From NCBI GenBank assembly GCA_030950365.1, contig JAUZRQ010000032.1:1-56609 (forward strand): 56,609 nt of DNA. The letters are read 5' to 3'. The stretch comes from Candidatus Zhuqueibacterota bacterium. Its GTDB lineage: Bacteria > Zhuqueibacterota > Zhuqueibacteria > Zhuqueibacterales > Geothermadaptataceae. Every line of letters starts with the position of its first letter. The stretch's first letter is position 1. The notes under the pieces were generated by a model. It did not search any database. It was not told the origin of the DNA and saw nothing but the letters and a program-made list of their open reading frames with translations. This document shows, piece by piece, positions 50,751 to 56,609 of the stretch. The position numbers and the translations under genes are program-made.

Positions 50751-53204
50751 ATGAAGAAGTGCTATTTCCACACTTTCCTGCTGTCCTTTTTCATCCTCAG
50801 CATGGCTGTTGCTCCGGCTTGGGCACAGGTGAAAGTTGCCAACGTCGAAGCGCACCAGGTTCCCAATTTTGTAGGTTATGTCCCTGATGAAATCGTAGTC
50901 AAATTTGACCGTTCCATTTTGCAGTCTCTGAAAAAGGAGCTGTTCAGTCAGGGGGAAACAGGAGTTTTTGCTCTGGATGCGCTGGGTGCAAAATTCCAGG
51001 TACAACGCATTAAACAGCAATTTCCCGGTGCGAAAATTCGCCGTTATCGCGGCCGCATCGTGGACCTGTCCGGCTGGCATAAAATCAAATTTGCCAATGC
51101 GCAGGACGTTCTGCAGGTGGTGAAAGAATACCAGGCGCTTGCCGGAGTGATCAAAGCGGAGCCCATCGGTATTCATGCGGTCACGATCACGCCCAACGAT
51201 CCGAAATTCCCGGATCAATGGCATCTGAATCAGGCCAACGATGCTGACGTCGATGCCCCGGAAGCCTGGGATATCGAATCGGGCAACGGCGCCATCATCG
51301 TCGCCGATATGGATACCGGCGTTCGCTATTTCCACAAAGACCTTGGCGGTGCCAATGCCTCGTACAGCAATCCCTCTGCTACCGATGGTAACATATGGAT
51401 CAATACCGACGAAATCCCGGATAACGGCATCGATGACGACGGCAATGGCTATGTCGATGACTGGATCGGCTATGACTTCGTGGATAATGTGAGTTCCTGC
51501 TATTCCGGAGAGGACTGTAGCACTCCAGACAACGATCCGCGGGATTTTAACGGACACGGCACGCACGTGGCCGGCATCATTGCGGCCATGAACAACAATG
51601 GCTACGCAGTGTCCGGAATTGCCGGTGGAATGGGCAACGGCACCAACACAGCTAGCGGCACTGGCGTGAAAATCATGCCCCTGCGTATCGGCTGGTCGGG
51701 TGTGTTTATTATATGGGAGACAGGCTACGTTCGTATGGACTTCGCCGCCGAAGCGTTCCATTATGCTGCGGACAACGGCGCCCGGCTCGCCAACTGTTCT
51801 TGGGGCTCGTCCAATACCGGCGGACTCGGCGAAGCTATTGATTATTTCCTGGCAGCCGGCGGTTTGATTTTCAAAGCCGCGGGCAATGACGGTACCGATT
51901 CACCGGATTACATGGGCCAGCGCACCGATATCATCAATGTGGCCTCTACCGATGAAAATGATCTCAAATCGGATTTTTCAAATTTCGGCACCTGGGTTGA
52001 CATCTCCGCCCCAGGCAGTAACATCTGGAGTACCTATCACGAAAGTAATGATCCAGCAAACGACTACATCGCATCCTTAAGTGGCACCTCCATGGCCACC
52101 CCGGCGGCTCTGGCTGTGGCCGCGCTTATCTGGTCCAAACATCCGGATTGGAGCGCGGCTCAGGTGAAACAGCGTCTGTTCGATACAGCCGATGATCTGG
52201 ATGCGAAAAATCCGACATACGCTGGCAAACTGGGCGCTGGACGCGTCAATGCCTTTAATGCGGTCAATGATGGCGGCACCACCCCCAATCCGCCGGCCGC
52301 GCCATCCAACCTGACCGCCACCGCGGTGAGCACCTCGCAGATCGACCTGAGCTGGACGGACAATTCCAACAACGAGGACGGATTCAAAATCGAACGCAAA
52401 GACCCGGGATCGACCACGTTTGTCGAAATCGCCCAGGTCGGCGCCAACGTCACCAATTACAGCGACACCGGTTTGAATCCCAACTCGACCTACACCTACC
52501 GCGTGCGGGCGTTCAACGCCGATGGCAACTCTGGCTATTCAAACGAAGCCTCGGCCACGACCCAGACGCCGCCGAACCAGCCGCCCACGGCCACCATCAC
52601 CCAGCCTGCGGACGGCTCGACCTTCACCGTCGGTCAGACCGTGAACTATGCCGGTGACGGCACCGATCCCGAGGATGGCGTGCTGCCGGCGTCGGCTTTC
52701 ACCTGGGAAGTGGACCTGCCCAATGGCAAGACCCACGTGCTGGCCACGGGCGTCAAATCCGGATCGGCCACGCCGACCGCACCCGGAACCTACATTCTGC
52801 GACTCATCGTGGAGGATAGCGGGGGCCTGACCGGTACCGATCAAGTCACAGTATACGTAGTGGCCGCCAAAGGCATGGCGCCCAACGCCGAAGCGGATAT
52901 GATCGCCACGGATAAAATCCCGACCGGGTACGCACTGTACGATGCTTTCCCCAATCCGTTCAATCCCGAGACCCGTATCCGTTTCTCGATTCCGAAAACG
53001 GAAAAGGTCACGCTAAAGATTCTGAACGTGATGGGCAAGGAAGTGCGCTCACTGGTGAACGGCGTTCGCATGGCGGCCGGCACGTACACCTACAAATGGG
53101 ATGGCAAGAACAATGCGGGTAACACGGTGCCAAGCGGGGTTTATTATGTACGTATTGAAGCGGGCCCGCTAAAAACCATGAAGAAACTCAGTCTGTTGAA
53201 ATAG
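50751..53204 (+). CDS. Secreted subtilisin-like serine protease with FN3, Ig-like and sorting domains
   Basis: The 817-residue protein has a signal peptide (LLSFFILSMAVAPAWAQ), a prodomain-like segment at about 35-145 and an S8 peptidase domain at about 155-500. The catalytic triad is Asp188 (DMDTGV), His269 (NGHGTHVAG) and Ser447 (SGTSMATP). An acidic loop (NGIDDDGNGYVDDW) probably binds calcium. A fibronectin type III domain lies at about 514-608, an Ig/PKD-like module at about 609-705, and a sorting domain from about 725 (FPNPFNPETRIRF, ending KKLSLLK). It should digest proteins outside the cell. A terminator follows. Part of its FN3 domain is almost identical to one in the sulfatase at 54705. 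Confidence 0.93.
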   Translation: MKKCYFHTFLLSFFILSMAVAPAWAQVKVANVEAHQVPNFVGYVPDEIVVKFDRSILQSLKKELFSQGETGVFALDALGAKFQVQRIKQQFPGAKIRRYRGRIVDLSGWHKIKFANAQDVLQVVKEYQALAGVIKAEPIGIHAVTITPNDPKFPDQWHLNQANDADVDAPEAWDIESGNGAIIVADMDTGVRYFHKDLGGANASYSNPSATDGNIWINTDEIPDNGIDDDGNGYVDDWIGYDFVDNVSSCYSGEDCSTPDNDPRDFNGHGTHVAGIIAAMNNNGYAVSGIAGGMGNGTNTASGTGVKIMPLRIGWSGVFIIWETGYVRMDFAAEAFHYAADNGARLANCSWGSSNTGGLGEAIDYFLAAGGLIFKAAGNDGTDSPDYMGQRTDIINVASTDENDLKSDFSNFGTWVDISAPGSNIWSTYHESNDPANDYIASLSGTSMATPAALAVAALIWSKHPDWSAAQVKQRLFDTADDLDAKNPTYAGKLGAGRVNAFNAVNDGGTTPNPPAAPSNLTATAVSTSQIDLSWTDNSNNEDGFKIERKDPGSTTFVEIAQVGANVTNYSDTGLNPNSTYTYRVRAFNADGNSGYSNEASATTQTPPNQPPTATITQPADGSTFTVGQTVNYAGDGTDPEDGVLPASAFTWEVDLPNGKTHVLATGVKSGSATPTAPGTYILRLIVEDSGGLTGTDQVTVYVVAAKGMAPNAEADMIATDKIPTGYALYDAFPNPFNPETRIRFSIPKTEKVTLKILNVMGKEVRSLVNGVRMAAGTYTYKWDGKNNAGNTVPSGVYYVRIEAGPLKTMKKLSLLK
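52371..52541 (+). repeat. FN3 segment shared with the sulfatase (copy 1)
   Basis: This 171-base segment encodes 57 residues of the protease FN3 domain. It aligns without gaps to 56439-56609. I count 16 base differences (about 91% identity), 15 of them synonymous, leaving one amino-acid change (Arg to Leu). Confidence 0.85.
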
Positions 53205-53225
53205 CCCGAAGGCTCGACAAGCCTA

Positions 53226-53262
53226 AAGCCCGGCATGCCATCGATGCCGGGCTTTTTTATTT
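53226..53262 (+). terminator. Intrinsic terminator after the subtilisin gene
   Basis: AAGCCCGGCAT (53226-53236) pairs perfectly with ATGCCGGGCTT (53244-53254) around a seven-base loop, followed by TTTTATTTTA. It lies 22 bases after the stop at 53204. Confidence 0.9.
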
Positions 53263-53514
53263 TATGCCATTATGCAATTCGAAACTTTGCCAAGAAAAAG
53301 CAAAATGACACGCATGGCAACAGGTGGTGCGAAAACGCCGTTCGGTACCGATGATCCTTGTATCGCATGAAAAGCGGAGCTGGGCTTTTTCGTTTGAGAG
53401 CATATTCGCGAAATTGGCACTCTCGAAAAGCACTGAGAATCGCCTCTGCGGCCTAAGCGGCCGCTTCGAGAGATGAATCTTCGGGGGCCTTGCGGATGAT
53501 TCGGAATTATTTAT

Positions 53515-53543
53515 TTGACTATCGCCAATTTGTGATGTATATA
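53515..53543 (+). promoter_or_regulatory. Sigma-70 type promoter of the small membrane protein gene
   Basis: TTGACT (53515-53520) is followed by 17 bases and TATATA (53538-53543), or by 19 bases and TATAGT (53540-53545). Transcription would begin near 53551. The downstream gene at 53816 has a perfect AGGAGG site but a long untranslated leader. Confidence 0.55.
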
Positions 53544-53815
53544 GTGTTCAATGGTGCCAATCTTCATCCGGGAATGGGTATTGTGGAGGCCGCGTCTTCG
53601 TTATCCGTCTGGATTCGTTAGGGTTGGCGGCCACTCGATCGCAAGGGGATATAATTCGTCGCCGCTTGTGATGTCAGGATTGGATGCATAGGTTCCCATC
53701 CGGGCCCTGGGCCGGAACCGGCACGCCTTCCCGAAGCTGAAACCGCTCCTGGATTTTTGCAGGTCGTTTACAATCCTACCCGTTTTAGGGGGCATAACCA
53801 AACGCAGGAGGTCTT

Positions 53816-54058
53816 ATGAGCTTACGGGAAATCATTCTTCAGTTGGTACAAATCGCCATCTTTTTTGCCTTTCCCACTATCTGGGGCTGGATCATGCAAT
53901 ATCTGCCCTGGTGGCCATTTGATCCGGAATCCACTATGAACATTCTCATTTTTCTTGCCGTCACAATTGTCTCCTGGTTACTCGGATTTCTGGGGATTCG
54001 CAAATTCATCAACAACCTCAAAATCCGCGGCCTGGCTGCCGATATGACCGCCGGCTGA
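53816..54058 (+). CDS. Small two-helix membrane protein of unknown function
   Basis: The 80-residue protein has a strong ribosome site (AGGAGGTCTT before the ATG). It has two hydrophobic segments, about residues 9-29 (IAIFFAFPTIWGWIM) and 41-62 (MNILIFLAVTIVSWLLGFLGI), joined by a YLPWWPFDPE loop. The C-terminal tail is short and basic-polar. I do not recognise a family. It is preceded by a likely promoter and stands alone. Its size and layout fit small membrane proteins such as holin-like, stress or transporter-regulating peptides, but no role can be assigned. Confidence 0.7.
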   Translation: MSLREIILQLVQIAIFFAFPTIWGWIMQYLPWWPFDPESTMNILIFLAVTIVSWLLGFLGIRKFINNLKIRGLAADMTAG

Positions 54059-54377
54059 GCCAGTCGAATTGGTCACGATCAACCGGTCGGTAACCGGTCG
54101 GTGTCCGAATAAGGTAAATATCGTCCGGGTGTCGACCGGTGACTTATTATTGCTCCGCCCGATCGCCTTTCTTTGCGCCATCCGTGCGCCAGTCACGCCA
54201 TTCGTAAGATAATCTTTGTTCTGCAAATAGCAGGCGACGCAGGTATTATTTTACAACCAGCCAATAAACGGAACGGCGGCGTGTCGCGGAACGCCGAAAC
54301 AGAAGCAGGACGGCCATCCTTCAATTCCGAGAATTCCGCTCTAGTGATAGAAGGACCTACCTAGGGCCAACCACTGG

Positions 54378-54485
54378 CTAAATTTCATTTTCCAACCGTT
54401 GCCAATATTTCAAGAAACCACGGAAATCGGTTCGTTGGCTGAGGATTTCCAGGGGATTGAGATCGTCATACCAGAGGTTCGGGAA
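54378..54485 (-). pseudogene. Possible C-terminal remnant of a degraded gene
   Basis: On the minus strand a 35-codon stretch ending in TAG at 54378 reads like real protein: LWYDDLNPLEILSQRTDF and GFLKYWQRLENEI. It is cut off upstream by a TGA at 54486-54488 and has no start. Farther upstream, another frame (about 54580-54490) also reads plausibly (RAFRGDYFRPENWAMDSKN), suggesting a frameshifted gene. I do not recognise the family. The call is weak and rests only on codon-like appearance. Confidence 0.25.
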
Positions 54486-54559
54486 TCATCCAATTTCATC
54501 GATAAATCAGCGTTTTTGCTGTCCATTGCCCAATTTTCAGGACGAAAATAATCTCCACG

Positions 54560-54600
54560 AAATGCCCTGGCTTTTGCCGGGGCGTTTCTTAATTTTTTTA
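54560..54600 (+). terminator. Terminator-like hairpin with a T-run
   Basis: AAATGCCCTGGC (54560-54571) pairs with GCCGGGGCGTTT (54576-54587), including two G-U pairs, around a TTTT loop. CTTAATTTTTTTA follows. The nearest plus-strand gene ends 500 bases upstream, so it may end an untranslated or unrecognised transcript, or be fortuitous. Confidence 0.4.
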
Positions 54601-54704
54601 TAATACACCCCAGACTTTAGGATTGGCTTTTTCCAAGAATAGATATGGCAGCGGGTGGTTTTAATCGAATCCAGTTATACCCAGCAAAGGTAAGAGGATC
54701 TTCC

Positions 54705-56609
54705 ATGAAACAGGGTCGAATCTCCATCGTGCGTCGGTTCTCATTCTTTATTGTTGCTTTAGTCGTGTTGCTAATTTGGCTTCAAACCGGTGCAATTGCA
54801 CAGCAAACCAGTACACAGCCTAATCTTATCATCATCCTGACTGATGATCAGCATTTCGAATCCATCAATTATTTGCCGACAATACAGAAGTATTTTATCG
54901 AAAAAGGCTTGAATTTCCAAAAGGCCTTTGCAACCACGGCCCTCTGCTGCCCAAGCCGGTCCAGCATCCTTACGGGGCTCTATGCGCGGAATCATGGCAT
55001 CCACTACAATGGAGGCCCGGAAGGTGGATTCAGCAACTTCAACGATCAATCTACCCTGGCCACCTGGCTCCACGATGCTGGTTATCAGACCGCACTTGTG
55101 GGGAAATATTTGAACAATTATACATCCACCTATATCCCACCAGGTTGGGATGAATGGCAAGCCCTTCTTTCTGGCGGATGGTACTACAATTATGAAATCA
55201 ACGAAAACGGTACCATAGTAAGCTATGGATCGGCAGATAGCGTGTATTCCACTGATGTGTTAGCCCGGAAGGCAGTAAATTTCATCAAAACGGCTACCAT
55301 TCCATTTTTTCTCTATTTTTCACCTATAGCTCCGCATGAACCAGCCACACCTGCAGCGAGGCACGATACGCTATTTTCGGACCTGGCACCTTATCGTCCC
55401 CCAAACTACAATGAAGAAGATATTTCTGACAAACCTTCATGGATGCAAAATCTGCCTCTACTTAGTACTCAGGATCAACAAAATCTGGACGCATTCCGAC
55501 TCGATCAAATACGCACCCTGATGGCTGTCGATGAAGCCATTCAATCTTTTATTGATGCACTAACGGAGATCGGCCAATTGGAGAATACCATCATGGTATT
55601 CACAAGTGATCATGGCCTGGGCTGGGGGGAACACCGCTATGCCAAAGAAAAAGCAGCGCAAATCGATGAAGTGCTTCGGGTGCCCTTCTTGGTGTATGCC
55701 CCTGGTATCGACAGCACAGCTCGATCCGAATCCACCGAATTTGCATTGAATATCGACATCGCGTCGACTTTCGCCGAATTTGCTGGCGTGACGCCACCGG
55801 ATTCGGTGGACGGTGTCAGCCTGGTGCCTGCCATCAAAGGAACTGGCCGTTCCGGCAGAAATGATTTTGTTTTCGAGCAATGGGAAATCGGCAAATATGG
55901 TATCACCATCCCCAGTTTCCAGGGACTTCGCAACCACGAGTGGAAATACGTCGAATATGCAAACGGTGAAAAAGAATTATATGATCTTTTCAATGATCCT
56001 CATGAGTTAACTAACGTGGCAGGAGATTCAGCCTATATAGACATTCAATCGCAAATGGCGGCAAGGCTGCATGAATTACTCGGTAATCAACCCCCAAATG
56101 CAGTGGCCACGGTTGATCCGGATAGCGGCGAAGCGCCATTGACTGTTCAATTCACTGGCTCAAATTCCTCAGATCCTGATGGTACCATCCAAAGCTATGA
56201 TTGGGATTTCGGCGATGGAGGCACGTCAACGTTGGCTGATCCTCAGCATACATATCAAAATGTGGGAAATTACACGGCCCGGTTGATTGTCACTGATGAT
56301 GCCAGTCTCACCGATACGGCCTATGTTGATATAATTGTAACCGATCCAGGGCCGCAGCCTCCGCAAGCGCCTACAACTTTAACAGCAACCGCCGTCGATA
56401 CCAGCCGAATCGATCTTTCATGGACCGATAATGCCAACAACGAAGACGGCTTTAAAATCGAACGCAAAGACCCGGGTTCCACCACCTTCGTGGAAATCGC
56501 CCAGGTCGGCGCCAATGTCACCAACTACAGCGACACCGGTCTGAATCCCAACTCGACCTACACCTACCGTGTGCTGGCCTTCAACGCCGACGGCAACTCT
56601 GGTTATTCA
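54705..56609 (+). CDS. Secreted sulfatase with PKD and FN3 domains (3' end outside the window)
   Basis: The gene runs off the window after 635 codons. The start is the ATG at 54705, with GAGGA upstream, opening a signal peptide (FFIVALVVLLIWLQTGAIAQ). The alkaline-phosphatase-superfamily sulfatase domain spans about 38-450. LIIILTDDQH holds metal ligands Asp47 and Asp48, and CCPSRSSILTG carries the formylglycine site at Cys81 within C-x-P-S-R. TSDHGLGWGEHR has Asp302 and His303. It is closest in pattern to N-acetylglucosamine-6-sulfatases. A PKD domain (about 465-545, with FGDGG) and an FN3 domain (from about 553) follow. It would remove sulfate from an extracellular polysaccharide and needs a formylglycine-forming enzyme, which is not in the window. 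Confidence 0.93.
   Translation, partial: MKQGRISIVRRFSFFIVALVVLLIWLQTGAIAQQTSTQPNLIIILTDDQHFESINYLPTIQKYFIEKGLNFQKAFATTALCCPSRSSILTGLYARNHGIHYNGGPEGGFSNFNDQSTLATWLHDAGYQTALVGKYLNNYTSTYIPPGWDEWQALLSGGWYYNYEINENGTIVSYGSADSVYSTDVLARKAVNFIKTATIPFFLYFSPIAPHEPATPAARHDTLFSDLAPYRPPNYNEEDISDKPSWMQNLPLLSTQDQQNLDAFRLDQIRTLMAVDEAIQSFIDALTEIGQLENTIMVFTSDHGLGWGEHRYAKEKAAQIDEVLRVPFLVYAPGIDSTARSESTEFALNIDIASTFAEFAGVTPPDSVDGVSLVPAIKGTGRSGRNDFVFEQWEIGKYGITIPSFQGLRNHEWKYVEYANGEKELYDLFNDPHELTNVAGDSAYIDIQSQMAARLHELLGNQPPNAVATVDPDSGEAPLTVQFTGSNSSDPDGTIQSYDWDFGDGGTSTLADPQHTYQNVGNYTARLIVTDDASLTDTAYVDIIVTDPGPQPPQAPTTLTATAVDTSRIDLSWTDNANNEDGFKIERKDPGSTTFVEIAQVGANVTNYSDTGLNPNSTYTYRVLAFNADGNSGYS
56439..56609 (+). repeat. 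FN3 segment shared with the subtilisin (copy 2)
   Basis: This 171-base segment at the window edge encodes the sulfatase FN3 residues that match the subtilisin copy at 52371-52541. The protein segments are 56 of 57 identical. The repeat may continue beyond the window. Confidence 0.85.

Follow-up and report, generated by a model that had tools for sequence, protein, structure and literature searches.

Exchange between FN3 copies of secreted enzymes, followed by purifying selection, probably explains a near-identical segment in a subtilisin and a sulfatase of a KSB1 genus

Bacterial FN3 domains are mobile among enzymes. The two domains described here belong to the same Pfam family as the FN3 domains of other secreted bacterial enzymes (PF00041; e.g. 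chitinase A1, PDB 1k85), scoring 50.9 and 41.6 bits against a cut-off of 25; the chitinase structure matches FN3 at 3.9e-5, behind titin, contactin and designed consensus FN3 chains. Unlike ordinary bacterial FN3 domains, the copies found here in different genes of one genus are near-identical in protein and differ at synonymous sites. A related pattern comes from Apilactobacillus kunkeei, where the extracellular proteins giant4b and giant5b have very low dN and dS, which the authors put down to homologous recombination; they saw no sign that giant genes within one genome had recently undergone gene conversion with each other (PMC12863079). There the same gene is compared between strains, whereas here the exchange would be between different genes and would concern one domain only. 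A third point of comparison is type IX cargo carrying a Por_Secre_tail (TIGR04183/PF18962). The C-terminal domain (CTD) of the subtilisin clears both cut-offs (PF18962, 28.7 bits against 27; TIGR04183, 25 bits against 23), and SprA_N, the one component of the type IX secretion machinery that was searched for, was found elsewhere in the window genome. The sorting domains are nonetheless diverged between genes (mostly below 55% identity among the matches listed), while the FN3 beside them is nearly identical. A literature search over titles and abstract openings returned no report of FN3 homogenisation between genes in KSB1, and no paper joining 'KSB1' with 'type IX secretion' was found.

The window, by which we mean the whole stretch of 56,609 nucleotides that was analysed, is the entire contig C63 of G000, a genome of 4.98 Mb assembled into 136 contigs; there is no contig sequence past 56609. 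Its features are collected in Table 1, with the codons of the FN3 domain numbered from 0. The closest comparison is provided by a sister genome, the candidate division KSB1 MAG G001.

Table 1. Features of the protease and sulfatase genes at the end of the window
Feature	Position	Strand	Basis and remarks
Subtilisin-type secreted protease, 817 aa	50751..53204	+	ORF; Pfam; layout: N-terminal S8 prodomain, S8 catalytic domain, FN3, Ig-like domain, C-terminal sorting/FlgD-like domain
S8 catalytic domain, subtilisin	51291-52238	+	Pfam PF00082 1.2e-41
FN3 domain, subtilisin	52290..52565	+	92 codons, GC3 0.82; Pfam (PF00041 at 1.8e-13) and AlphaFold2 model
Putative exchange breakpoint, FN3 codon 24	52362..52364	+	max-chi; sulfatase equivalent 56430
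57-codon near-identical segment, subtilisin copy	52371..52541	+	16/171 differences, 15 synonymous
Ig-like domain 3' of subtilisin FN3, not homogenised	52575..52871	+	codon identity comparison
C-terminal type IX-type sorting domain (FlgD-like Ig), subtilisin	52872..53201	+	profile matches
80-aa ORF	53816..54058	+	synteny marker after FN3-Ig-CTD gene in both species
Sulfatase gene, cut by contig end	54645..56609	+	GC3 0.46 up to 56429
Sulfatase domain with SGSH_C-type C-terminal part	54819-55790	+	PF00884 1.8e-45, PF16347 6.2e-23
PKD domain, sulfatase	56085..56330	+	PF18911 1.2e-22; GC3 0.42 over 56082-56357
FN3 domain, sulfatase, incomplete	56358..56609	+	Pfam, codon and GC3 comparison
FN3 parts, sulfatase			codons 0-23 taken as native, GC3 0.42; codons 24-83 putative exchanged tract, GC3 0.73
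57-codon near-identical segment, sulfatase copy	56439..56609	+	base-level comparison with subtilisin copy

The initial annotation had singled out a 57-codon FN3 segment shared by the two genes, and its counts of the nucleotide and synonymous differences proved exact. The single nonsynonymous change is CGG/CTG (Arg/Leu) at domain codon 72. By the NG86 method pS is 0.375 and pN 0.008 (dS 0.52, dN 0.008), a dN/dS of approximately 0.015, and over the whole 83 shared FN3 codons subtilisin and sulfatase have 7 residue differences. An AlphaFold2 model of the FN3 (pLDDT 98) predicts eight beta strands, and with the strands assigned from this model the segment corresponds to strands C-G of an ordinary FN3 domain. 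Positions W22 and Y68 are invariant in an FN3 family alignment of 23 sequences. Because 56609 is the contig end, the right boundary of the sulfatase copy is hidden.

The left boundary lies inside the domain. A max-chi comparison of subtilisin and sulfatase at conserved residues found 5 of 18 codons identical before codon 24 and 43 of 58 from it (P=0.0016); in the first 27 FN3 codons, 7 of 20 are identical where 9.5 would be expected from between-species orthologue rates, such that identity begins abruptly mid-domain. Base composition changes at the same place. Third-position GC in the sulfatase gene rises from 0.46 (275/595) before 56430 to 0.73 (44/60) after it (Fisher 6.6e-5), and none of the 535 overlapping upstream 60-codon windows reaches the GC3 of the tract. 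The jump in codon identity and the step in GC3 are partly dependent, since shared codons also bring GC3. The step nevertheless gives the direction of exchange, identifying the sulfatase as the recipient. In the AlphaFold2 model the breakpoint sits in a loop between the strands at 17-23 and 31-37. With its junction in this B-C loop the sulfatase would retain its own A and B strands, and strands C-G were probably received from a resident FN3.

We therefore favour a probable, though by no means certain, explanation in which FN3 copies of secreted, type-IX-type proteins recombine ectopically and purifying selection acts as well. According to this model, several secreted type IX-type enzymes of the KSB1 genus would have the FN3 in common as a spacer module, and its copies would swap sequence by ectopic homologous recombination (gene conversion or unequal exchange). 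Strands C to G of a resident, GC3-rich FN3 would have taken the place of the corresponding stretch in the GC3-poor FN3 native to the sulfatase, leaving the left junction of the exchanged tract in the B-C loop near 56430. The donor may have been the neighbouring subtilisin, which lies ~4 kb upstream, or some other copy in this pool. The sulfatase copy and the sister's subtilisin copy have 29 of 40 codons identical, compared with 27 of 40 between the sister's subtilisin copy and its own orthologue, and the donor therefore need not be the neighbouring gene. The exchange would predate the 15 synonymous changes, which would have accumulated by drift while purifying selection held the protein almost unchanged. 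The simplest reason for this constraint would be that the module works as a rigid spacer, resistant to proteases, with an exact fold that suits the secreted proteins carrying it.

A possible though unlikely alternative is a fusion, in which a horizontally acquired gene comprising the sulfatase, the PKD domain and the start of an FN3 was joined, at a point within the FN3, to a tail of resident origin (FN3, Ig and sorting domain), which would make all sequence past 56430 resident. The GC3 of the sulfatase gene, which stays at 0.46 until 56430 and then steps to 0.73, is as this reading predicts, and so is the distribution of the gene. A sulfatase query found no match in the sister genome at E 1e-20; at E 1e-80 it matched in 4 of 15 genomes of the order, the window's own included, at 39-47% identity elsewhere. 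With a GC3 below the 0.61-0.73 of the five neighbouring genes measured, the sulfatase gene (54645-56429) may have been horizontally acquired. Its missing 3' end was sought by gene order. In the sister contig C173 the end of an FN3-FN3-Ig-CTD gene is followed by an 80-aa ORF, a STAS-type gene, a MacB cluster and two esterase-like genes (all three family names being putative, read from sequence). The window genome keeps this order split over C63, C67 and C117, of which C67 and C117 overlap by exactly 141 bases; the sulfatase is placed between the 80-aa ORF and the STAS-type gene, two ORFs that in the sister have only 325 bases between them. On this synteny, the sulfatase gene probably has its 3' end on C67. 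We discarded the idea that the two contigs overlap directly, since the 39 bases shared by the start of C67 and the end of the window differ at 4 positions and no exact overlap was found. Such a mismatch would perhaps fit a gap with a second tandem FN3.

The composition of C67 supports a resident tail, with GC3 of 0.88 in its FN3 tail, 0.68 in the Ig domain and 0.74 in the CTD, like the five neighbouring genes and unlike the sulfatase. Since the Ig domain and CTD share this resident composition, the fusion stays a rival to a conversion with two ends. Against it, these two domains are old: they share 78% (Ig) and 41% (CTD) of residues with those of the subtilisin, and no other CTD among the matches listed from seven genomes was above 53%; the tail was therefore not copied from the neighbour. 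The adjacency of C63 and C67 is moreover itself read from synteny. A query made of the subtilisin Ig-like and sorting domains gave 64 matches in the window genome at E 1e-10, which suggests that this genome encodes many type IX-type cargo proteins whose sorting domains have diverged strongly.

Ectopic exchange, the reading that we prefer, concerns a pool of copies rather than a single pair. In the window genome these are the subtilisin and sulfatase copies plus a partial one with which contig C67 ends; in the sister they are the copy in the subtilisin orthologue (C70), a tandem pair in C173 (C173a, C173b) and two more in C37 (C37d, C37e), which makes four or five copies in three contigs there. 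The sister's C37 also holds two more diverged FN3 copies. Across the 57 codons, 32 vary among the eight pool copies (three of them incomplete), and one of these changes the residue. The ends of the sister's C37 and C173 overlap by 303 bases at 95.7%; they may represent one esterase-like gene with strain variants (alleles) or two loci, and C37e may thus be the same copy as C173a. Both species have contigs that break off within an FN3 (the window at 56609, the end of C67, the start of the sister's C37 and the end of its C70), and genes with the FN3 module are therefore truncated in these MAGs.

A mosaic is present within the sister pool. Where C173b and the incomplete subtilisin copy differ, C37d matches C173b at 7 sites and then the subtilisin copy at 10, without exception; the exact chance of this order is 1/19448, or 0.009 after correction for the 182 triplets tested. 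The excess of identity is also confined to the domain. The share of identical codons was higher in the FN3 than in the adjoining Ig domain in 4 of 4 comparisons, two of them between species, where GC3 contributes: 73/91 against 18/54 for C173b and C37d, 59/92 against 39/93 for the window subtilisin and the tail of the sister's C173, and 22/24 in the FN3 tail against 41/76 in the Ig domain (and 20/41 in the CTD) for the window subtilisin and C67. The mean share of identical codons over codons 27-63 was 0.744 within a genome and 0.662 between genomes, from few copies. A PHI-like recombination test among copies over the same codons was not significant (P=0.27). Although 45 of 91 site pairs are incompatible among the FN3 copies, recurrent mutation at saturated third positions can give the same result. 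The putative exchanged tract is short.

Conversion alone would erase synonymous differences as well, and purifying selection is therefore also needed. Orthologues of the two species are near synonymous saturation, with pS of 0.70-0.76 in four genes and 0.62 in a fifth whose protein is more diverged. At matched synonymous divergence, the genus copies change few residues. With the other-genome pairs limited to residue identity above 0.75, and with pairs that are not independent, 2 genus pairs at pS 0.15-0.30 differ by 0-1 residues and 13 other-genome pairs by 4-19, while at pS 0.30-0.45 the figures are 0-2 residues for 9 genus pairs and 4-21 for 23 other-genome pairs. The contrast is weak at pS 0.45-0.60 (genus pairs 1, 1, 2, 7, 7, 8, 17 and 21 residues; other pairs 9-22). 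Within the 57-codon segment there is no residue difference between the window subtilisin and any of the five sister pool copies. The S8 domain differs between the two species at 28 of 316 residues. Against this rate, the FN3 of the window subtilisin differs at 1 of 92 residues from C173b and from C37d (binomial P 0.002 each), at 2 of 92 from C173a (P 0.0097), at 2 of 67 from its true orthologue on C70 (P=0.057) and at 2 of 64 from C37e (P=0.069). Greater conservation of the FN3 than of the S8 domain thus holds against C173b and C37d and not clearly against the C70 orthologue or C37e, and we give it weak weight; the case for exchange, built on the breakpoint, the GC3 step, the mosaic and 15 synonymous changes against one nonsynonymous, stands without it.

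These observations bear on a simpler history, an old duplication of the whole FN3 maintained by purifying selection without any later exchange. The dN/dS of the window pair would suit it, as would the conservation of core FN3 positions across phyla in the 23 aligned sequences. We regard it as improbable in view of the internal breakpoint, the GC3 step, the mosaic C37d and the fact that identical codons are more frequent in the FN3 than in the Ig domain beside it. What the initial annotation had proposed, duplication or gene conversion followed by strong constraint on the protein, is supported by the breakpoint, the GC3 step, the sister mosaic and a protein that has hardly changed alongside 15 synonymous substitutions.

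The two genomes are fragmented. Four contigs end inside an FN3, a repeat in which assemblies break, and the final ~180 bases of the window could accordingly be a chimera with another FN3 copy. This is quite improbable. The contig tail has no exact match to either of the other two copies found in the genome, although the genome may hold a further one; its longest exact run with the subtilisin copy is 28 nt and the run that spans codon 24 is only 3 nt. By contrast, the exact 141-nt overlap of the neighbouring contigs C67 and C117 is what would be expected of a large final k-mer, and the phenomenon also occurs inside the sister contigs C173 and C37.

The pool FN3 copies are rich in GC3 (0.80-0.86, with 0.64 in the sulfatase copy, compared with 0.60 for the part of the subtilisin that precedes the FN3 and 0.47 for the catalytic part of the sulfatase), and chance codon identity is therefore raised. 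At the 56 conserved residues of the window pair, 41 codons are identical, where between-species orthologue rates predict 27.9 (P=0.0003) and a GC3-matched null built on the domain's own codon usage predicts 30.2 (P=0.0019). Under the GC3-matched null the subtilisin and the partial C67 copy have 19 of 21 codons identical against 10.4 expected (P=5e-5), and 9 of 11 within-genome pool pairs fall below P=0.05, as do 3 of 10 between-species pairs (range 0.013-0.25). Exchange between species was considered and set aside: the FN3 codon excess over orthologous flanks and an island of low synonymous divergence mostly vanish under the same null, and we therefore make no claim of it. Chance similarity from a common consensus and codon bias, which a widespread FN3 consensus and a GC3-rich domain might invite, is refuted by two controls, since C37c, a genus copy outside the pool, shows no codon-identity excess in 7 of 7 comparisons (lowest P 0.28) and FN3 copies of other genomes have 0.26-0.50 of codons in common with the two window copies. 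The similarity of the window segments is more than codon bias.

A search of the window genome for further copies returned 20 protein matches at E 10 or better: the two window copies, the partial near-identical one (C67:6622-6684) and 17 at 27-41% identity, with one 21-residue stretch at 65% among these weaker matches; at the DNA level only the subtilisin, sulfatase and C67 copies stand out. In a scan of named genomes, from which the window genome's own records may be absent, the best 80 of 364 relatives were kept and represent 78 loci. Three of these are near-identical (97-99%), all from candidate division KSB1 isolate S140_5, and the other 75 show 51-72% identity and come from many phyla, a patchy spread that fits the mobility of bacterial FN3. 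Of 40 genomes searched, including the window's own, 15 had a match at E 1e-15 or better, and 13 of these, leaving out G022 and G024 with one weak match each, supplied a comparison set of 121 FN3 copies, of which the 120 with at least 50 codons were compared. Copies from separate genomes had a median residue identity of 57%, as did copies on separate contigs of a single genome, and for copies on the same contig the median was 64%; outside the genus, the closest two copies from separate contigs of a genome were 78% identical. In a midpoint-rooted FastTree of the 120 copies, all 9 genus copies of at least 50 codons fall in one clade, with support of 0.975 for its seven-copy core. Long tandem FN3 arrays occur in order-level relatives (G008 contigs C34 and C69; G012 contig C67), with 41 and 38 matches per genome, and some adjacent repeats of G008 are identical in protein. 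The initial annotation had allowed that many widely diverged copies might make the similarity ordinary for this family. Such copies do describe the FN3 family at large, as the best loci and the between-genome median show, but they do not account for the window pair, which is far outside that range. The FN3 family is ordinary; the window pair is not.

The most likely history of the segment is thus an exchange of DNA between domain copies, after which the protein was kept nearly unchanged. Domain recycling of this kind is already known, and the locus is a clear instance of it and not a new system, although it is somewhat unusual for a single FN3 version to be frozen in unrelated enzymes within one genus. 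On a more speculative and rather doubtful view, the FN3 would act as a landing pad for recombination: incoming enzyme genes with a related FN3 would recombine inside resident copies and thereby acquire, in a single step, the resident FN3-Ig-type IX sorting tail; the FN3 protein would be frozen across unrelated enzymes because the junction has to work. That the module has a common ligand-binding role, as the initial annotation had ventured, is a guess. The locus provides a fairly well-resolved natural example of how the secreted enzymes of uncultured bacteria are built from shared parts, in which a spacer domain is swapped between genes and then fixed while the remainder diverges. It also suggests why assemblies of these genomes break within FN3-bearing genes and, if the landing-pad view were true, would offer a testable route by which foreign enzymes gain a host secretion tail.
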